Assembly (NCBI GenBank): GCA_963377175.1
Contig: CAUJNA010003241.1
Span: 187,501 to 251,500, forward strand
Direction of reading: 5' to 3'
Length of the DNA stretch: 64,000 nt
Origin: Effrenium voratum
Taxonomy: Eukaryota > Sar > Dinophyceae > Suessiales > Symbiodiniaceae
The translations under genes and the position numbers were made by a program. A model generated the notes under the pieces. That model did not search any database, was not told the origin of the DNA, and saw nothing but the letters and a program-made list of their open reading frames with translations. This document shows positions 24,812 to 35,756 of this stretch, piece by piece (positions within the stretch are counted from its first letter, which is position 1; each line of letters begins with the position of its first letter).

Positions 24812-24841
24812 GAGAGGGGCCGAGGGTTGGAAGGACCAGCA

Positions 24842-24904
24842 GTAGTAGTATAGTAGTGGTGGTGGTGGTGGTGGTAGTGGTAGTGGTAGTGGTAGTAGTA
24901 GTAC

Positions 24905-24949
<45 letters not shown>

Positions 24950-25275
24950 CAGCAGCAGCAGCAGCAGGAGTCGTCGTAGTTGTTGTTGTCGTCGTAGTGG
25001 TGGTGCTGATAGTGGTGCTAGTGCTAGTGCTAGTGCTAGTGCTAGTGCTGGCGGTAGTGCTAGTGCTTAGGGATAGTGGTAGTGCCAGTAGTAGGGGTAC
25101 TGGTAGTAGTTGTTGGAGTGGTTGTGGGAAGTGGTAGTGGTAGTGCTATTGGTCGTGGTAGTGCTAGTGGTAGTGGTAGTGGTGGTGGTTGTGGTTATGG
25201 TAGTGGCAGTGGTGGTAGTAGTAGCAGCAGCAGTAGTAACCACTACCACTACCACTAGTACAGCACCAGCACCAG
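24842..25275 (+). repeat. Compound trinucleotide array (GTA/GTG/GCA)
   Basis: TAG/TGG, AGC and GTGCTA units in succession within intron 1 of the ankyrin gene. It produces spurious poly-Val, Ser, Gly and Thr frames. Confidence 0.95.
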
Positions 25276-25796
25276 TTCCAGCACCAGTTCCAGCACCAGC
25301 ACCACCGCCAGCCTGAGGCATGACAATGATCTCCGGGAGCGAATATCATTTGTTTGCTGGTTCATTGCTGGAAATAGTTGAAACATCAAGCTGATGGTCG
25401 ACGGGTTGCGCAATTCACCATGAGCAGTGGCATCATCTAACCAGACAAGCCAGACTTCAGGTCTTGTGTCACGCCACCATTCAGGAGCTGGATTCAGGCG
25501 AAAAAAGGTGTGGCTGGCCTTGGCTGAAATTTGTGCCGTCCTTTTTCAAGTCCGCAAAAAAGAGGTGCCAACTCAGAACAACCGAGCCACACAGGGCTGA
25601 GTCTTTCTTTTTGTTGGTACATCCAGCTGGCTGCAACAAATTAACCGCAAGCTTGTGCACTTGGAGTGCCAGGAGAGGCAGATCTCGATCTTCAGGCGGA
25701 GAGTGGCGGAAACGGAAAGGAAACCGGAAGCGAATCGCTTTCCCCCGTTTAGAGTCCCAGCTAGCGCCGTCCCATAAACGTGATTCTTTTGTTTGG

Positions 25797-25806
25797 TGTG
25801 TGTGTG

Positions 25807-25870
<64 letters not shown>
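25797..25870 (+). repeat. (GT)n microsatellite at left edge of the retroelement
   Basis: About 37 GT units run directly into the left direct repeat of the retroelement. This suggests insertion within a GT tract, although the last five units are also part of the repeat at the other end. Confidence 0.9.
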
Positions 25871-25871
<1 letters not shown>

Positions 25872-26112
25872 CCCCCCTGTTCCTAAGGGGTTTTGCGGTC
25901 GTGCTTTTCTCTCTTTATTGGAGTCGGACGCCACCTTGACGAATGCCCCGGAATGCAGTAATCCTGTTGGCAGATGGCGTTCCTGATGAGGATTGCCGGC
26001 AGGATGAACAATTACCGGGCTTACGTCAAGCCGAAACTCCTCTTTTCACCTTTCACCTTTCAGTTGCTTGGGGGTGCACCTTGGCAGTTTCGCCGTCTCA
26101 TATCAAGTGTGT
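25860..26112 (+). repeat. Left 253-bp direct repeat of the retroelement
   Basis: Aligns without gaps to 32231-32483 at an offset of 6371. The only differences are C/A at 25904 versus 32275 and T/C at 25980 versus 32351. It begins within a GT run and ends atatcaagtgtgt. It does not show the TG...CA ends of a classical LTR, which fits a pseudo-LTR. It contains the hammerhead at 25920-26040. Confidence 0.95.
25920..26040 (+). ncRNA. Type III hammerhead ribozyme, left copy
   Basis: All conserved positions are present. Stem III pairs GGAGU (25920-25924) with ACUCC (26036-26040). The cleavage base C17 is at 25925 in a GUC context. Stem I pairs GGACGCC (25926-25932) with GGCGUUC (25976-25982), seven pairs including one G-U. 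The core CUGAUGA is at 25983-25989. Stem II is closed by GG (25990-25991)/CC (26031-26032), then after an A-G mismatch UUG/CAA, with an inner CCGG/CCGG helix. GAAA follows at 26033-26036. The open helix is stem III, hence type III. The order and spacing of so many fixed motifs are unlikely by chance. The expected role is self-cleavage of element RNA. Confidence 0.85.
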
Positions 26113-26414
26113 TTAGGCACTGCGTCCGGGCTTCGGTCAGTGTCTTGATCCCTCTTGGGGGCATCTGTTCCGACTCATGCTCAGACATTTTCTACAGACT
26201 GTTACCGGACCTTGTCGCTCGTGACGCTTGACTGTTCCAGCTGATCTTATCAATACAGGCTTGGACCTCTCCCAGACCTTCCGGCACCCCAGACTGTTTC
26301 CGTGAACCGTTTCTGTCAGACCAACTGTTTGACAACCCATCCGACTACCCGACACATCAGGTGGAAAATCACGACGCCGTCAGCTTGGTCTTGGCTCGCA
26401 ATTGTTGGCACTAG
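26113..26414 (+). other. Leader of the retroelement between left repeat and ORF1
   Basis: About 300 bases unique to the element, without recognisable motifs; a second, overlapping frame opens at 26402. It presumably serves as the 5' untranslated region of the element RNA. Confidence 0.5.
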
Positions 26415-27959
26415 ATGTCTCGCCCCCACGCAGGTCCGATGTCGAATTCGGCAGGCCCCATGGCCAAGGCATCCAGGAACACTGCCGGCCCTACGCCGCC
26501 CAGGTCTCCAGTGCACCAGTCAGCATCACCGAGCAGGAGTACGCTTGTGACACCAGCTTCGAGGACATCTTGCGAGGTGTCCAACGCCTCAAGGGCTGCC
26601 AAAGCAGCGGTCCCGGCTCTTGCTCCTGGAGACGCATCGGCATCGGTCCCTACCTTGGAGGTCTGGCCTGCATCTGTAGCTGGCCCACTGCCGCAAATTC
26701 TGGTGAAAGCACGCCCGGCCACACCGATGAGACCAATGACTCCGATGACGCCAACTACCCCGACAGTTTCAACTACAGCATGCCCACCTATGCCCACAGC
26801 ACCGACCCCTATCACACCGATCCCTACGGCAACCCCATCAGGTCAGATGCTTCCACCGCCCAACCCACCATCCAGATTACGCCACACGACGGAGGGAGAC
26901 CGGTCACGTTCCCACAACGCCTCCCCCTACTCCAAGTCAGTGCCCCCACAGCGGCGAGGCCGAGCTCGCTCCCGGACGCCACCTCCGATCTCCCGAAGGG
27001 ACTCAACATCGGACAACACCGTGACGGAAGCATCGAATGCTACCGCGCCGACGCCCACAGCAGCCAAGTCCTCATCCCGGGCACCTACGGCAACTAAAGC
27101 TTCATCCCGACGACCGAGAAGCAATCGATCTCCCCTTCCGCGTAGCAGAAGCAGTGCCCCGTCAGCTTCAGCCTCCAAGGCCGCAGGAGCTCGCCCGGAT
27201 GTGGGGTCGTCCTCGAGGAGCATGCAACTACGCCCCAATCCACAGGCACATCCACCGCTGGTCTTGCTTCCCAACCCGGAGTCTGATCCCTGGAGGAACG
27301 AACTTCAGGTGCTGGCAGCACCATATCTTCGCGATGGGATCCCAGTCAATCAGGAGCAGATGAGCTATGTGGCCGCGACCTTGAATGCAGCAGGCATACC
27401 GTCTCAGCATTCCACCCTGAACTATGCGAAGGTCAACCCGGATCATCATTTTTATAAGATCACCCCGCACTGGTTCATGCTGACGGTCCCTTATCTTGGG
27501 GCCACGGTCCGGCTCAAAGAACCGACGAAGACGCGACCCATGCTGCTCTGGACTCACGCTTCCAGTGTTGGAGGTACCCGCGGCATCCTGCGGAGCCGAC
27601 AGATCCATCCTTCCCGGCAGCACTCCTCGGAGTGCCCAGCCTTTTATGCCCAGGGCTGGAAGATCACTGGACACGCCGACTACGACGCTGAAGAAACCGC
27701 TCGCACGATGAGCCAGAACTGGAGCATGTCTTTTAACATGGCTCAATTGCTGTTGTTCGGACGCGCTGTTGGCACTTGTCAACCGATTCGATCGGGAGGA
27801 GAGCAAGCTTGCATTGAGGCCCTGGACTCCAGTGAACGTCCTGATGTTATCCACTATGTGTCGGGCAAGTGTTGGATGGTGATCCCGGAGGCAAGCCAGA
27901 TCGTTGGACTCGCATGGCCCACCGATGCAAAACCGCCCACTGGTGTCCTCCGCTCGTGA
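26415..27959 (+). CDS. Retroelement ORF1, unknown structural protein
   Basis: Encodes 514 residues. Roughly the first 280 are Pro/Ala/Ser/Thr-rich and basic, with RS-type stretches such as SSRRPRSNRSPLPRSRSSAP, likely disordered and possibly nucleic-acid binding. From about residue 285 a globular segment follows with YLRDGIPVNQEQMSYVAATL and NPDHHFYKITPHWFMLTVPY, ending GLAWPTDAKPPTGVLRS. No homology is recognised. By position it may play a Gag/ORF1-like role. A second frame (26402-27097) overlaps its disordered part; the 26415 frame is preferred because only it continues into the globular segment. Proposed only as the first ORF of the element. Confidence 0.6.
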   Translation: MSRPHAGPMSNSAGPMAKASRNTAGPTPPRSPVHQSASPSRSTLVTPASRTSCEVSNASRAAKAAVPALAPGDASASVPTLEVWPASVAGPLPQILVKARPATPMRPMTPMTPTTPTVSTTACPPMPTAPTPITPIPTATPSGQMLPPPNPPSRLRHTTEGDRSRSHNASPYSKSVPPQRRGRARSRTPPPISRRDSTSDNTVTEASNATAPTPTAAKSSSRAPTATKASSRRPRSNRSPLPRSRSSAPSASASKAAGARPDVGSSSRSMQLRPNPQAHPPLVLLPNPESDPWRNELQVLAAPYLRDGIPVNQEQMSYVAATLNAAGIPSQHSTLNYAKVNPDHHFYKITPHWFMLTVPYLGATVRLKEPTKTRPMLLWTHASSVGGTRGILRSRQIHPSRQHSSECPAFYAQGWKITGHADYDAEETARTMSQNWSMSFNMAQLLLFGRAVGTCQPIRSGGEQACIEALDSSERPDVIHYVSGKCWMVIPEASQIVGLAWPTDAKPPTGVLRS

Positions 27960-28146
27960 ACCTGCACCAGGAGCATTTGCAGCCAATGACAATTAATGAT
28001 GTTTCATTGCGAATAAGAGCATACTTCGCCACACTGCCGTCTTCGACTACCGACGATATTTTGCGACAAAAAGTGCACGCCAGAGCCTGATCCGAGTATG
28101 TGCTGACCTTGCTGCAGGGTTCCTTTTTTGAAGTTTTGTGTAGCTA

Positions 28147-29652
28147 ATGCTGTTTTCTGGTCGCTCACCACCCTGGGCCCGGACGGAATTCGGGCGTCGT
28201 TTTGGCATGGTTGTTGTTTTGGAAATGTGTGGCGTACCCCTAGCGTTTAACCCATTAGCAGTGCGGGCGGCAACCTCCTATCTCGTGATGGCTTCTCCGT
28301 GGAGCTATTCATGGCCGGCGACATCGGCACCTTCTTCCTCTTCGCATCCGGGACACTCGTATCTACCGTCATGGTCATTTCCGCAGTCCCAGCAGGAGGC
28401 ATATCTCAGCTCCAATCGGACGGAACCTTCGCAACATCAACTTCGCGAGGAAGCACCGTCCCGAGTCAATCCCCCTCGGCCCCCACAGATGGCTCATCAG
28501 TTTCCTCCTCAACCACCCGGTCAATTTTACAACTATCACGGTGGTGGAACAAGTCACACGCAGACAGGTCCTCGTCCTCCACCACCCGCACCGCCAGTTC
28601 AACCTCCAGTTCGGGCACCTCTAGGCCAGGGTGATGCAACGCAATACACTCAGCCTCGATATTCGCAGCTGCTTCCCAGCACCTTCCAATCTGACGACAT
28701 CTTCCTAGACAAGACGGAGGTCCGTGGTCTGCAGCTGTACCGTCACGTTCAGCCCACTCAGTGGTCCAGAAGAGTTGGGCTCGCAGGAACAGCCATCCTG
28801 GATCTTCCACTCACGCGACTTCTTCGAGGAGGAGCAGAAGATCACGCATTACGAGCACTATCAAATGGCCGCTACAGCACACCAGTTATGGCTCAGACGA
28901 TAGCCGAGGCAGTCTTATTGACATCCATTCTCAAAGCATTGAGAGGCAGGGAGGTCGACATTGACAGGACAGCTCGCTCTCTCCACGCGGACAATGCGCC
29001 GGATAAGCGCAATGAGGCCATGCAGTTTATGGAGCCACTTGCAATCAAAATCGTGGATCTCATGGAGTCCTTGCAGCCCGCCAAGCAGGAGAACCTCACT
29101 CGCCACAAAATTGCCGAATTAGAGCAACAGCTGGAGCGCTACAAGAGCAAGGGCATCACTCTTACACCAGATAAGAAGCTGCCGTCCTCGTCCCCTTCCA
29201 ATGCCGCGTCCTGGACCCCCACGCCCGGCCGCTCTGACCAGTCCCTCTACATCAATGCGGCCAACTCGGATCAGTCAGGACCTCCCCTACCAGTTCCATC
29301 TCCAGAGGCTGATCCAGCCCCTAAGCGACGACCAGCAAAGAGAAAGACCCCGGCGGCTCCTCCGGATGTCACTCTAGACTCGGACCTTCTACGTCAAGGG
29401 AACCCCAAAGGTCAACAGGTGCCACTCCCCACCAGTCTCACGGACAAGGTCTTCAAGGCATGGCTACACGAACGCACGCTGTCCAACCAAGCGACCTACC
29501 TTGACCTCATCAAGCAGGAGCTGGCATCGGACACAGTGGAGCAGTTGAAAACCATTGCAGTCAAGTGGGGGGCCACCATCTCCTTAGTGAGCAAAGGATC
29601 GAAGCGAGCACTCCTGCAGTTCATCACGGTGATGTACATGTATGGCAAGTGA
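28147..29652 (+). CDS. Retroelement ORF2, unknown protein
   Basis: Encodes 501 residues, 187 bases after ORF1. The first ~165 residues are Ser/Pro/Gln-rich. The middle (about 180-350) is compact, with LQLYRHVQPTQWSRRVGLAG and a predicted helix around HKIAELEQQLERYKSKGI that looks like a short coiled coil. A basic linker (KRRPAKRKT) precedes a C-terminal helical segment (FKAWLHERTLSNQATYLDLI) ending in FITVMYMYGK. No family is recognised. An accessory or structural role, for example oligomerisation or RNP assembly, is a guess from layout. Confidence 0.6.
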   Translation: MLFSGRSPPWARTEFGRRFGMVVVLEMCGVPLAFNPLAVRAATSYLVMASPWSYSWPATSAPSSSSHPGHSYLPSWSFPQSQQEAYLSSNRTEPSQHQLREEAPSRVNPPRPPQMAHQFPPQPPGQFYNYHGGGTSHTQTGPRPPPPAPPVQPPVRAPLGQGDATQYTQPRYSQLLPSTFQSDDIFLDKTEVRGLQLYRHVQPTQWSRRVGLAGTAILDLPLTRLLRGGAEDHALRALSNGRYSTPVMAQTIAEAVLLTSILKALRGREVDIDRTARSLHADNAPDKRNEAMQFMEPLAIKIVDLMESLQPAKQENLTRHKIAELEQQLERYKSKGITLTPDKKLPSSSPSNAASWTPTPGRSDQSLYINAANSDQSGPPLPVPSPEADPAPKRRPAKRKTPAAPPDVTLDSDLLRQGNPKGQQVPLPTSLTDKVFKAWLHERTLSNQATYLDLIKQELASDTVEQLKTIAVKWGATISLVSKGSKRALLQFITVMYMYGK

Positions 29653-29893
29653 GGGGAGTGACGGTAGCACAGACGAAGAAGGAAGTTAGCACCATCGACA
29701 CGACTGGTATGAAAAGCCCGCTGCTCCTCACGCCTGCACCTTGCCCGGAGACCATCAACGGCCTTTTATCCTTTTCGTTTTCCTGTCGGTTCTCGGGGTC
29801 GCGGGTTCCTTTTTCGGGTTTTTCGGGTTTTCCGTTTTTTCTGTTGACCCAATCAACCGTTCAGTGCTCGAGCGTTGGATGCATGGCTAAGCC

Positions 29894-32257
29894 ATGCCGG
29901 TCATTCAATCTCCAGAAACGGTTTTTCTTTTGCAACTATATAGCAAGTACGCACTGTCGGAGCTTTACAGTGCAGCCAGACACTATGGTATTCCTGAGCC
30001 GTCCTGGCCGGTGAGCTTGCAACATGGTACCGACTATTTCCTTCCTTACATCGTTGCGCTCATTGCGATCAGACTCGGGGACTCCCTCGATGTGCATGCA
30101 GCCCATCAGTATTATCAGGTTCTCTATCTGATCGTCGTCACAAGTCGCCAAATCCTTAACATGCCGATGGTCAACAAGCAACTGTCCATGTGGTCCGAGT
30201 CAATGTCCACGCTGCTGATGGTCCACCACTACGGTCGTCCCACGCATGCGCTCACGGAGCTCAGGCGCCGACTCCGGCGTCAGCGCATCCACCCGAACAT
30301 GTACACCTTCACCCACTTCTTGCAGCCCAACGCAGTGTACTGGAAGCAGCGAGTCGAACTCCGCCCGGACCTTCCACGCTCAGTCAATCCGCAGTCGGAC
30401 GTATACATTGGAAGCACCAGCATCACTTATCCCAGTCGAGAACACAATCGTAGGGCCAAGTTACTGGGTATTCAGCACGGACAGTTTATTAATGCAGAGC
30501 CGGCCCTCAGATGGTGGCATCATTTTGGCAACTATGACGAGTTCGCTACATGGGTGATATTCACAGACTCCGACCATACCGTGACCTGGACACAGGAACA
30601 CGCCTTGATTAGCATCTATCAGCCCTCCCTCAACTGGCCCTACATCTATCGGCGGTATAAGCGCATCTCCACAGGCTACACGGCTACCAGGTTTCTCGCC
30701 GAACAGCCCTGGTCCAGGTTCGGCAAACGCCTTTTCCTCCGCTTGCGCAGGAGGAGTTGTACAGTCTACGGTAGGAACTTCCATCGGGTGGCACTCAAAC
30801 ACACCCAAGCCTGGTCCATCATCGGTCGCCTCACCTCGGAGCACATTGAATCTTGGGAGGAGGAAAAACGACTTCGTAGTGGACGGCACTCAGACTTGGA
30901 TATATATGCTATATACAGGCTGTCAGGCAATGTGGAACAGCCCCATCGGCATCGAGTTCGGAATATTTTGCGAAGAGTTCTTGATTTCCGCCAACTCCAA
31001 CAACCCAAGATCAACTTGTTGTTGCGGTTACCGTGGCTTTCTCATCCCCAGTATCAGCGGTCCACCAGGGAAGTCCTTCGTCGGCTGGTTCTCGACCATC
31101 GCAACTGGGCTCTTCCATTCCACTTGCCCAGCACGAAGTTGGCGGAGACCCCTCATCCTCGAGTCCATACAGTCATGTGGAACTACTCGTTGTTTCAGGA
31201 CAATTACCTCCTCACATCAGCAGGACCATCATCGTGTCAGTGCGCAGCCTGGCTAAAACGGCAGCCCTGGCTATCTCATGTTCAAGGCCATGTGGCCGCG
31301 GGATTGGATGAGTTCCGGTTTCCCGGAACTCCACAGCATGTTCATTACACCTCAGCCTTGGCGTCATACTATGTGGACCTGTCCGTCTACGAAGTGCAGG
31401 TTCATGAACGTCTACGAAAATGGTGCCTGCACCACGGTCTGCCCCTGGACCAATTCCACGCACCCCTCATGCAGCACCTACGCAATGAATTTCGGAAACA
31501 CCGGCAGCACGCATCCACCCATCAACTTCTCACCAAGCACCAGCTGAACATCCTGCATCGGCACCTCAGCCAGGACTTTGTGTGCCACAACGAGGACCAT
31601 GACAACCACCACCTCATGTTCTTCTGCCCCCAACTCTACTTCGAAGGCCTCCACAACACCTGGCTTCAGTCCGGCACATTTGCCGCCACTTCGCTGAAGC
31701 CCGACCAGGCCGAGGCTCTTATTGTTGAAGCTATCCCGCGGCACCTGCAGAAGAGGTACAAATGGGCATACAGGAAGAAGACCACCGCGATCCCGGTCGG
31801 CAAGGTCTTTCTCAAACGTAAGAAGCAATGGAAATCAGGGCGAACTATTATAGCCTACCATAAGGTGGTGCACAGGCAGCTCTTCAAAGCGGTTGCGATC
31901 CTTCTCGGCGAGATCGCAGCGAGTACGTGGAAGTGTTCGTGGGGGGTACACCCCACGCCGAGGATATGGCAGAACGTCAAACAATACTTTGACAACACAG
32001 ACGATACAGTCACTCTTGCATTTCACAATGACGATTTGGTCGGCTTCTTCAACAGTGTCCCTCAGGATCAGGTGTGCGCAGCAGTTGAGCAGCTATTAGC
32101 AGAGCATCGGCGAGAGCATGCTGGTCTTGATCGTGAGCAGTTAGGCAGGAGTTCTGCCAACAGTCTAAACTACCCATCGGCAATCATGATGGAGGCGGCT
32201 TTTTGGCGGTTTTTCTTCCCCCTGCGGGGGGTGTGTGTGTGGCCCCCCTGTTCCTAA
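29894..32257 (+). CDS. Retroelement ORF3: GIY-YIG endonuclease and truncated Penelope-like RT
   Basis: Frame of 787 codons, 241 bases after ORF2. Residues ~136-250 carry GIY-YIG features: YIGST at 171-175, R182 and H184, then EHALISIYQPSLN (235-247) supplying the family's Glu and Asn. The first motif is degenerate (AVY or MYT). Residues 448-466 form C-x-C-x11-H-x3-H, a possible zinc site. From ~645 the RT fingers/palm begin: GRTIIAYHKVVHRQLFKAVA, then motif A as HNDDLVGFFNSVP (711-723), close to the DVVSLFTNVP-like motif A of Penelope-like elements. After ~765 homology ends, and the last codons (VCVWPPCS) are read from the 3' repeat, so motifs B-E including the YxDD box are missing. The order nuclease-then-RT marks a domain-permuted type. 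Confidence 0.75.
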   Translation: MPVIQSPETVFLLQLYSKYALSELYSAARHYGIPEPSWPVSLQHGTDYFLPYIVALIAIRLGDSLDVHAAHQYYQVLYLIVVTSRQILNMPMVNKQLSMWSESMSTLLMVHHYGRPTHALTELRRRLRRQRIHPNMYTFTHFLQPNAVYWKQRVELRPDLPRSVNPQSDVYIGSTSITYPSREHNRRAKLLGIQHGQFINAEPALRWWHHFGNYDEFATWVIFTDSDHTVTWTQEHALISIYQPSLNWPYIYRRYKRISTGYTATRFLAEQPWSRFGKRLFLRLRRRSCTVYGRNFHRVALKHTQAWSIIGRLTSEHIESWEEEKRLRSGRHSDLDIYAIYRLSGNVEQPHRHRVRNILRRVLDFRQLQQPKINLLLRLPWLSHPQYQRSTREVLRRLVLDHRNWALPFHLPSTKLAETPHPRVHTVMWNYSLFQDNYLLTSAGPSSCQCAAWLKRQPWLSHVQGHVAAGLDEFRFPGTPQHVHYTSALASYYVDLSVYEVQVHERLRKWCLHHGLPLDQFHAPLMQHLRNEFRKHRQHASTHQLLTKHQLNILHRHLSQDFVCHNEDHDNHHLMFFCPQLYFEGLHNTWLQSGTFAATSLKPDQAEALIVEAIPRHLQKRYKWAYRKKTTAIPVGKVFLKRKKQWKSGRTIIAYHKVVHRQLFKAVAILLGEIAASTWKCSWGVHPTPRIWQNVKQYFDNTDDTVTLAFHNDDLVGFFNSVPQDQVCAAVEQLLAEHRREHAGLDREQLGRSSANSLNYPSAIMMEAAFWRFFFPLRGVCVWPPCS

Positions 32258-32483
32258 GGGGTTTTGCGGTCGTGATTTTCTCTCTTTATTGGAGTCGGAC
32301 GCCACCTTGACGAATGCCCCGGAATGCAGTAATCCTGTTGGCAGATGGCGCTCCTGATGAGGATTGCCGGCAGGATGAACAATTACCGGGCTTACGTCAA
32401 GCCGAAACTCCTCTTTTCACCTTTCACCTTTCAGTTGCTTGGGGGTGCACCTTGGCAGTTTCGCCGTCTCATATCAAGTGTGT
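32231..32483 (+). repeat. Right 253-bp direct repeat of the retroelement
   Basis: Partner of 25860-26112. The sequence downstream (ctgtgaggtgtgcg) differs from that after the left copy, so 32483 marks the element end or the end of shared sequence. The flank is loosely GT-rich, like the left flank. Confidence 0.95.
32291..32411 (+). ncRNA. Type III hammerhead ribozyme, right copy
   Basis: Same elements as the left copy, shifted by 6371: stem III 32291-32295/32407-32411, C17 at 32296, CUGAUGA 32354-32360, GAAA 32404-32407. The T-to-C change at 32351 turns an A-U pair of stem I into A-C, which should weaken but not abolish the helix. Cleavage at both copies would release a 6371-nt RNA. Confidence 0.8.
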
Positions 32484-32978: not shown

Positions 32979-35756
32979 GAATGATACCCCACAAGCCACT
33001 TCTTCTTGGCAGCTTGAAAGGGAGGCCCAAAGGAAAAACCCTTGCGCCATTTTGGAGGTCCAAATCCTACAACAACGACCGGCCGGAACCGACAACCGGC
33101 GCAGCAAAATTGCACGTCGCCGCGCGTACGGCGCAGCCTTTCAAACGCGCGCGGCGCTTGGGTTTTGTCACTTACAACAATGCGCCCGTGTCAGAACGTG
33201 TGCGATGCTCCAGTGTGATTTGCCAAAACGTGTGTTTCACTGAGGCGAAACAAGATAAATCAAGAAAACACAGCACAATTCCCATGACGAACATTTCCGT
33301 GTTTTAGAACAGGCATGTGCATCTTGCCTCAGCGACACACGCAAGCCATACTGCCTCGCTGCAAAAGAAACGCCGCGGCTACACTTCTGTGATCTCTAGC
33401 ATGCGCCGCACGGCTGTGACTGTGGAAGACAACAAGCCTTGCAGCCATGTACCGCCAGTGCCACGCTTTTGCGTAGGTGCAAACAAATCAGGGGCAACTG
33501 CGTTGGAGTCCTGCGTGTGGAGCGTGGGCGGGTGCGCCTACCATGTGCCAGGCATGTACGCAGGAGTATGACGGAGAGCGTGGGTCGGCGTGTACGAGAA
33601 CCCACTTTCTGTCGGCCGGTAGAACGTCCTTGCTTAAACATCCCGAAAAACCAAGAAAACTCCACGCCGGTTTCCGGAGCGTAGGCAAAAACGACACACC
33701 CACATACCAGCAGTTGTAGAAGGTGGTTTTGGATGTATCCTTGAAGGAACCCCGACGATGTAACCTGCACGATGGTGTCCCATAGATTCTACACCAACTT
33801 CCCGCCTAACATGGCCGACATCAGGCACCCGTGGTAAGATTCCGGACGGCCACGTGAGCGCCAGGGTCGACCATGCTAAAACATAACGAGACTCCGCAAC
33901 CGGATATCGGCTTTCGATCGCCCTTTAAAGCAAGCTAACACGCGGTACTGCGCCTAAAACAACAGCCAACCCCCCTCCCCCCACACATTTGGGTTCGCCT
34001 CCAAACATCATCCAACTTTGCTGGAAGTCGAAACATGAAGCATATGAACATGGTATTTTCTGTGTTCCCCCCGGTATTGGCCAAAGCATATCAATTTGCA
34101 ACGGATTTCAACGCTCAGGCTTCGAGCTGGGTGATGCTCGCAGAGCAGGCGAGTCTTTGCAGCTTGGGGGCTTGGGGGTGAACAAACATGCGATTGTTTG
34201 TTCTTTACACATTCATTCATTCATTTATTCGTTCGTTCGTTCACTCATTCATTCGTTCCATTCCATTTCATTTCATTTCATTGCATTTCACTTCATTTCA
34301 TTGCATTTCATTTCATTGCATTGCATTTCATTTCATTGCATTTCATTTCATTGCATTGCATTTCATTGCATTTCATTTCATTCCATTCTATTCCATTCCA
34401 TTTCATTTCATTTCATTGCATCTCATTTCATTGCATTTCATTTCATTGCATTGCATTGCATTTCATTTCATTGCATTTCATTTCATTTCATTCCTTTTCA
34501 TTCCATTTCATTTCATTTCATTCCATTTCATTCCATTCCATTTCATTTCATTGCATTTCATTTCATTGCATTGCATTTCATTTCATTTCATTGCATTTCA
34601 TTCCATTCCATTCCATTCCATTTCATTGTATTTTATTTCATTGCATTTCATTGCATTTCATTGCATTTCATTTCATTTCATTTCATTGCATTTCATTTCA
34701 TTGCATCTCATTTCATTGCATTTCATTTCATTGCATTTCATTGCATTTCATTTCATTGCATTGCATTGCATTTCATTTCATTTCATTGCATTTCATTTCA
34801 TTTCATTCCATTTCCTTTCATTTCATTCCATTCCATTCCCTTCCATTCCCTTCCATTCCATTCCATTCCTTTGCATTGCATTTCATTCCATTCCATTCCA
34901 TGCCATGTCTTGCCATGCCATGCCATGCCATGCCATGCCATGCCATTCCATTCCATTCCAATCCATTTTATTTTATTCTATTCCATTCCATTCCATTCAT
35001 TCACTCACTCAATCACTCACTTCATTTCATTGCATTTCATTTCATTTCATTTTCATTTTCATTTTCATGTTCATGCCATTCCATTCCATTCCATTTCATT
35101 TTATTTCATTTCATTCCACTCCATTCCATTCCATTCCATTCATTCACTCACTTCATTTCATTTCATTTATTTTCATTTGCATTTTCATTTTCATGTTCAT
35201 TTCATTTCATTTCATTCATTCCATTGATTCATTCATGTATTCATTCATCCATTCCATTCCATTCCATTCCATTCCATTCCATTCCATTCCATTCCATTCC
35301 ATTCCATTCCATTCCAATGCAATCCAATCCAATCCAATCCAATCCAATCCAGTTCATTTATTCATGTATTCATTCATTCATTCTTTAATTCATTCATTCA
35401 TTCATTCGTTCGTTCGTTCGTTCGTTCGTTCATCCATTTCATTCATTTCATTTTATTTCATTTCATTTCATTCATTTCATTCATTCATTCATTCATTCAT
35501 TCATTTGTTCATTCGTTCGTTCGTTCGTTCGTTCTTTCATTCATTTCATTCATTTCATTTTATTCATTTCATTCATTTCATTCGTTCGTTCGTTCGTTCA
35601 TTCATTCATGCATTCATTCATTCATTCATTCATTCATTCATTCATTCATTCATTCATTTATTTATTTATTTCATTGCATTCATTTCATTAATTTCTTTCA
35701 TTCATTCATTCATTCATTCATTAATTAATTAATTATTGATTCATTCATTCATTCAT

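Follow-up and report, generated by a model that had tools for sequence, protein, structure and literature searches.

A probable domain-permuted Penelope-like retrotransposon with hammerhead motifs in its repeats in the dinoflagellate Effrenium voratum

The stretch analysed here, referred to as the window, comprises 64,000 nucleotides of the Effrenium voratum genome (Symbiodiniaceae; GenBank assembly GCA_963377175.1, contig CAUJNA010003241.1, positions 187,501 to 251,500, forward strand). It contains an element bounded by 253-bp direct repeats, most likely a recent, internally deleted retrotransposon of the Penelope-like elements (PLEs), from the branch with the nuclease at the N-terminus (domain-permuted), which would move in this dinoflagellate by the mechanism proposed below. 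The assignment to the domain-permuted PLEs, taken by itself, is very probable, and the element would apparently be the first PLE from an alveolate, with several open reading frames (ORFs), a motif C of the form YxDN and a hammerhead motif. An earlier note, made from the sequence alone, had reached the same classification and is correct in its essentials.

Among reverse transcriptases (RTs), the predicted structure of the encoded enzyme is closest to telomerase, and a GIY-YIG nuclease is joined to it, as in the endonuclease-bearing PLEs; this nuclease was recognised from residues and predicted fold, with no significant match in Pfam. In addition, the element has pseudo-long terminal repeats (pLTRs), and units arranged head to tail were found at one tandem junction (copy L022). 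The nuclease (residues 86–289) precedes RT motif A (residues 712–723), and PLEs with an N-terminal GIY-YIG reportedly also show a CxC linker, pLTRs, a bias towards microsatellites and an insertion-in-fingers domain. Domain order, a CxC between nuclease and RT, pLTRs and insertion into GT microsatellites were all found here and support membership in that clade. Canonical hammerheads are said to be absent from the N-terminal-nuclease branch, and in this respect the element departs from it, carrying a hammerhead motif whose stem I covaries.

Window copy, complete copies and encoded proteins

The two repeats claimed in the earlier note are 99% identical, with two mismatches, at 25904 and 25980, and the three ORFs that it had listed lie between them, all on the same strand (Table 1). 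The genome (1.156 Gb in 3,699 contigs) was searched with ORF3, 57 of 1,713 first-look candidates being scored. This gave at least 59 matches, and 38 of those listed stop exactly at query residue 745. Collecting further copies, as the note had proposed, revealed both the deletion in the window copy and a fourth ORF: 20 copies were fetched, ORF3 was readable in 17, and all 17 contain RT motifs B (GTAIGSQLSP) and C (RYVDNR), both missing from the window copy. In the alignment with copy C3163 the window copy breaks at 32128 and lacks 1,857 bp, and its ORF3 residues 746–787 are 3' untranslated region (UTR) and repeat sequence read through past the deletion.

Table 1. Features of the element in the window, in positions of the 64,000-nucleotide stretch.
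Feature	Position	Strand	Remarks
GT microsatellite around the left end	25796..25870	+	57-nt perfect run as far as the start of the unit, counting the unit's GT
Left pLTR	25860..26112	+	253 bp
Hammerhead ribozyme motif, type III topology	25920..26040	+	Predicted cut after 25925
Hammerhead parts	stem III 25920-25924/26036-26040; stem I 25926-25933/25975-25982; CUGAUGA 25983-25989; GAAA 26033-26036	+	
CATATCAAGTGTGT	26099..26112	+	Right-pLTR end sequence in inserted copies; putative reverse-transcription start
ORF1	26415..27959	+	514 aa, Pro/Ser/Thr-rich N-terminus, without Pfam match
ORF2	28147..29652	+	501 aa
ORF3	29894..32257	+	787 aa; residues 1-745 element protein, remainder post-deletion read-through
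N-terminal GIY-YIG nuclease domain	30149..30760	+	Residues 86-289; presumed catalytic set Y149, Y171, R182, E235, N247
CxC motif	31235..31243	+	C448 and C450, between nuclease and RT
H565-x2-D568-H569 ... C578 cluster	31586..31627	+	
RT motif A, NDDLVGFFNSVP	32027..32062	+	Residues 712-723
Breakpoint of the 1,857-bp deletion inside the element, as compared with C3163	32128	+	RT residues 746-990 (motifs B and C) and ORF4 lost
Remnant of the 3' UTR	32129..32230	+	In tandem copy L022 this sequence stands before the unit start
Right pLTR	32231..32483	+	253 bp
Second hammerhead copy	32291..32411	+	7/8 stem I pairs (one mismatch); predicted cut after 32296

In C3163 the repeats lie about 8.2 kb apart and enclose a fourth ORF (P0002, 299 aa), so that complete copies, of about 8.4 kb, read pLTR–ORF1–ORF2–ORF3–ORF4–pLTR; the two extra ORFs of the earlier note are present, and ORF4 is a third that it had missed. 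In 16 of these 17 copies the ORF4 position holds an ORF of 201–323 aa, truncated in some where the fetched stretch ends. P0002, the one ORF4 protein covered by the domain scan, showed a Myb-like domain slightly under the Pfam cut-off (PF13921, 22.3 versus 22.9 bits, E = 1.5e-4). The near identity of the repeats, together with 98.7% identity to C3163, suggests that the window copy was inserted recently. A search for the empty site with the right flank returned a full-length match solely at the window's own locus. The sole other listed ORF3 match extending well beyond residue 746 (C3092:626187-628388, residues 50–781, 89% identical) may be another copy that has undergone this deletion. Open frames of 2356–2422 aa in three copies were considered as ORF fusions and dropped, these loci (L025–L027) containing long N runs.

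ORF1 has eight homologues, matching its C-terminal half, seven of them 84–98% and one 55% identical. An ADP-ribosyltransferase-like pattern was suspected in its C-terminus but gained no backing, the best BLASTP E value against P0043 being 0.17. ORF2 resembles the N-terminal part of protein P0042 of Symbiodinium sp. CCMP2592 (35% over 199 aa, E = 2e-33), and P0042 also contains the nuclease and the beginning of the RT, which indicates that the ORF2–ORF3 order is common to Symbiodinium.

The GIY-YIG residues proposed for ORF3 were followed in alignment A6, whose 17 rows hold 15 relatives, out of 39 found, and two entries of the window copy. YIGST is in place at residues 171–175, and R182, E235 and N247 are invariant; H184, which had also been named, varies, the adjacent N185 and R186 being conserved. 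The invariant Y149 is taken as the tyrosine of 'GIY'. Searches with the nuclease in Pfam and among Protein Data Bank (PDB) sequences gave no significant match, and when the whole family was used for a PDB profile search, four weak and seemingly unrelated matches resulted (best E 0.0031). For the nuclease, the profile check suggested in the note gave no significant Pfam match, and the domain was assigned to GIY-YIG by its predicted structure (best Foldseek E 0.024). The C-x-C and H-x3-H cluster was present as described, and the former is found at the aligned position in 23 of the 25 rows of alignment A3, P0018 having a gap and P0038 other residues there. RT motif A was likewise located as the note had given it. 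Motif C reads YxDN instead of the usual YxDD in each of the 35 relatives that reach it (set P0005–P0043). As regards an insertion-in-fingers domain, motifs A and B are separated by 78–90 residues, with strands and helices in the model. The closest structural neighbours of the predicted RT fold, modelled in relative P0011 (residues 361–912), were telomerase reverse transcriptases (TERTs), the likeness extending to the region ahead of the RT motifs.

Hammerhead motif and competing rod fold of the repeats

Rfam reported no hammerhead in the window at the gathering threshold, nor in 25800–26300 and three further loci with E up to 10, and our initial view was that the ribozyme claim of the earlier note was wrong. 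This was overturned when a form with long loops was found on reading the repeat: GGAG-UC / GGACGCCA ... UGGCGUUC-CUGAUGA-GG ... CC-GAAA-CUCC, the slash marking the predicted cut. With CUGANGA, GAAA, a UH cut site, three stems and the open end at stem III, both pLTRs carry a putative type III hammerhead. When both strands of the window were scanned with a descriptor, one match was obtained, with 15 stem pairs; the same descriptor in 40 dinucleotide-shuffled windows gave two matches with at least 11 pairs and none with 15. These scans were devised after the motif had been noticed, and so they measure its rarity and are no blind prediction.

The whole core is kept in 13 of the 15 readable left pLTRs and in all three right pLTRs; the exceptions are L013, which reads CGGA for CUGA and keeps stem I, and L009, without the ribozyme region. 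Across 12 distinct segments, 98.3% of cells pair, compared with a shuffle mean of 85.1% and 34–47% in slid versions, and double-sided changes occur at eight pairs, a count reached in none of 500 shuffles. Seven of the eight stem I pairs covary; stem III is silent in this respect because it is invariant, stem II has only two standard pairs, and the number of additional pair types is unexceptional, being reached in 183 of the 500 shuffles. RNAalifold, unprompted, returned stem III and seven of the eight stem I pairs, with a small hairpin across the core.

Genome-wide, the pattern matched 230 places, against 12 with a reversed control, and at least seven of the eight stem I pairs form in 32 of the 35 sequences shown from these matches (exceptions C2, C203 and C603). 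When the strands of stem I were swapped between types, mean pairing fell to 4.9 of 8. Among the 100 listed of these 230 places, 24 of 35 neighbouring same-strand pairs are spaced 7.8–8.6 kb, as expected for the two pLTRs of a single element. Three other pairs lie 705, 1,704 and 3,550 bp apart (C197:218900-219722, C724:315349-317178 and C767:44836-48503, respectively, each on one strand) and are possibly short non-autonomous, retrozyme-like derivatives.

Some results weaken the case for a cutting ribozyme. Swapped stem I strands still reach seven pairs in 35% of cases, a weak contrast that arises because several types differ little. In addition, loops I and II are complementary over much of their length, and the resulting rod hairpin is the computed minimum-energy fold in all 12 segments (−36.8 to −51.5 kcal/mol, versus −17.7 to −36.6 for the hammerhead), computed with a program that ignores pseudoknots and tertiary contacts. 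Loop complementarity scored 28–44 within a copy and 13–23 across six subfamilies, every self value exceeding every cross value, and 80-nt strings covering part of loop II in 22 types gave a weaker contrast (self mean 14.7, cross mean 10.1). A control with chimeric loops separated partly, native loops giving −41.2 to −51.5 kcal/mol and chimeras a mean of −37.6 and a lowest value of −45.6. The strands being common to both folds, rod and hammerhead are probably mutually exclusive; the loops may make a partial loop–loop contact, and the balance between the two folds may decide which RNAs get cut. Viroids also alternate between rod and hammerhead, and the two pLTR folds resemble this.

The rod preference, the better match of loops within copies, the altered core of L013, the loss in L009 and the silence of Rfam could all mean that the motif is vestigial or non-cutting, and that the functional part of the pLTR is the long rod, for instance as a protein-binding site for the RT. 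We regard this as unlikely, since neither the core (CUGANGA, GAAA, UH) nor stem I is necessary for a rod and both persist, with stem I covarying. The whole core stands in 13 of the 15 readable left pLTRs, and the unprompted consensus fold contains stem III and seven of the eight stem I pairs; the computed energies omit tertiary contacts that help hammerheads.

Ends in GT repeats and proposed route of insertion

Left ends could be read in 15 of 21 copies (the window copy and the 20 fetched), the other six containing long N runs. Fourteen of them are outer 5' ends, and all lie inside a GT run on the coding strand, of 19–397 nt including the unit's own stretch, that exceeds the GT stretch of the element itself. 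In the fifteenth, L022, the sequence ahead of the unit is the 3' UTR of the element itself, which makes a head-to-tail junction. Internal unit starts, in arrays or before the right pLTR, showed a constant GT stretch of 11 nt in three of three cases (window, L014 and L022). The outer run measures just 21–25 nt in L009, L014, L017, L021 and L023, and 19 nt in L013, where it follows a GC-GT repeat; with runs this short, the element may itself have supplied some of the flanking GT. The + strand of the window has nine GT runs of at least 16 nt and no CA runs, a strand bias.

The three right ends read (window, L029 and L030) terminate at the same CATATCAAGTGTGT. The sequence beyond it consists of GT repeats, of a TGCG repeat or, for the window copy, of a short stretch rich in GT. 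From these junctions, reverse transcription seems to begin at a GUGUGU that might pair with a nicked AC strand. As the same sequence also lies inside the left pLTR, the copied RNA ended there or extended past it. A straightforward model, with the 5' end of the inserted RNA formed by ribozyme cleavage, was rejected, since those outer 5' ends that could be read are situated upstream of the cleavage site, by 66 nt in the window copy; the template was either uncut at that place or copied around a circle.

In the route that we propose, the pLTR would drive an RNA spanning more than one unit, through read-through or as a circle, and the pLTR hammerheads would cut it into unit-length or circular RNA, part of it being left uncut where the same 121 nt adopt the rod. 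The GIY-YIG domain, on the evidence of its predicted fold, would nick the AC strand of a GT microsatellite. The AC end released in this way would then pair with the internal GUGUGU in which the 253-nt pLTR ends, for extension by the telomerase-like RT, and synthesis would stop at the GT stretch of the unit start and be joined to the target by microhomology, leaving pLTR–body–pLTR within GT repeats. A more specific form, offered tentatively as possible but doubtful, is an alveolate branch of permuted PLEs with a two-state pLTR RNA, an exclusive hammerhead or viroid-like rod, both kept by compensatory change, in which unit circles made by the ribozyme are copied once plus 253 nt from the GT-primed internal GUGUGU. 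If true, circle copying would give one mechanism for the pLTR–body–pLTR, tandem and solo-repeat forms. Given the GT target, a constant right end and the ribozyme/rod competition, the route from PLE RNA to template can be tested directly in vitro.

Placement among retroelements and related families

An origin from a telomerase-derived RT lineage apart from the PLEs, with GIY-YIG and pLTRs acquired independently, would account for TERTs being the nearest structural neighbours and for a YxDN motif and extra ORFs that are not typical of PLEs, and our RT tree consists of the relatives found here. We hold it quite improbable, as the N-terminal GIY-YIG, CxC linker, pLTRs, tandem units and microsatellite insertion together match the permuted clade as reported and an independent origin would require every one of those traits twice. 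It is hardly credible that the repeats are true LTRs and the element a conventional LTR or DIRS-type retrotransposon whose RT is unusual. In favour are the near-identical direct repeats and the presence of several ORFs, of which the first is Pro-rich in the manner of some gag proteins. Against it stand the TERT-like RT and GIY-YIG nuclease by structure, the head-to-tail units of L022, the GT-rich repeat ends (within GT repeats, target duplications are not discernible) and the lack of any protease, RNase H, integrase or tyrosine recombinase among ORFs 1–4 in Pfam.

The element shares with Naiad, reportedly of invertebrates, and Chlamys, reportedly of green algae, spike mosses and slime moulds, a GIY-YIG before the RT, a CxC between them, pLTRs, tandem units and microsatellite insertion, and it differs from them in its alveolate host, its three additional ORFs, one Myb-like, and YxDN in place of YxDD. 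With TERT it shares the predicted fold of P0011, but it is mobile, has a nuclease domain and no known telomerase RNA. According to PMC12477816 (2025), Chlamys is present in the brown alga Ectocarpus, and PLEs had been unreported before that find in telonemids, stramenopiles, alveolates and rhizarians (TSAR); in the open-access literature, as far as its text was accessible, a search found no report of dinoflagellate or alveolate PLEs or of dinoflagellate hammerheads.

Canonical Penelope/Poseidon PLEs such as PAc, as described in PMC11167929, likewise combine a telomerase-like RT with GIY-YIG, pLTRs and a hammerhead in or by the pLTR. PAc is reported to initiate reverse transcription internally in vitro, and in our element, judging from the junctions, it would also start within the template; PAc has a C-terminal nuclease and a single ORF, whereas ours has an N-terminal nuclease and several, and PAc cleavage favours AT-rich DNA, whereas ours is found in GT repeats (same source). 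PLE hammerheads are, according to PMC6155905, usually minimal and without helix III, unlike the motif here with its five-pair stem III. Plant retrozymes, according to the same source, also have direct end repeats each with a type III hammerhead and could in principle form circular RNA, but they are non-autonomous and non-coding, whereas complete copies of the element encode nuclease and RT.

The genome carries a clade of several element families. Relative P0027 as query gave 49 matches; the best 18 are 35–38% identical, with open frames of 881–941 aa (three with one stop codon), at places absent from the ORF3 match list, and the remaining 31 (32–34%) belong to the window's family as far as places overlap. 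Divergent N-terminal-nuclease RT families with frames of about 915–927 aa lie at C3194:283201-285870, C494:209055-211724, C3045:785143-787812 and other places. A scan for related loci gave no match in viral contigs, and 25 pattern matches in bacterial and archaeal genome contigs included no relative. A multi-family dinoflagellate PLE clade would bring telomerase-related retroelements to alveolates and bear on the relationship between TERT and PLEs, and the presence of a hammerhead among elements with an N-terminal nuclease suggests that pLTR ribozymes go back to the ancestor of PLEs or arose a second time.

Around the element, a long trinucleotide-rich tract lies immediately 5' of it (window 24822-25321), a dispersed repeat with about 30 other genomic places at roughly 70–87% identity occupies window 33070-33284, and window 34197-34500 holds a tandem array of 10- to 15-bp spacing, within a stretch that is poor in GC (0.315) and shows a strong GC skew (−0.55). 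Elsewhere in the genome, the peridinin-chlorophyll protein (PF02429) gave 97 matches, compared with none in 14 control genomes, which identifies the host as a peridinin dinoflagellate, with large tandem gene arrays on C3530, C336, C355, C673, C188, C1204 and others.

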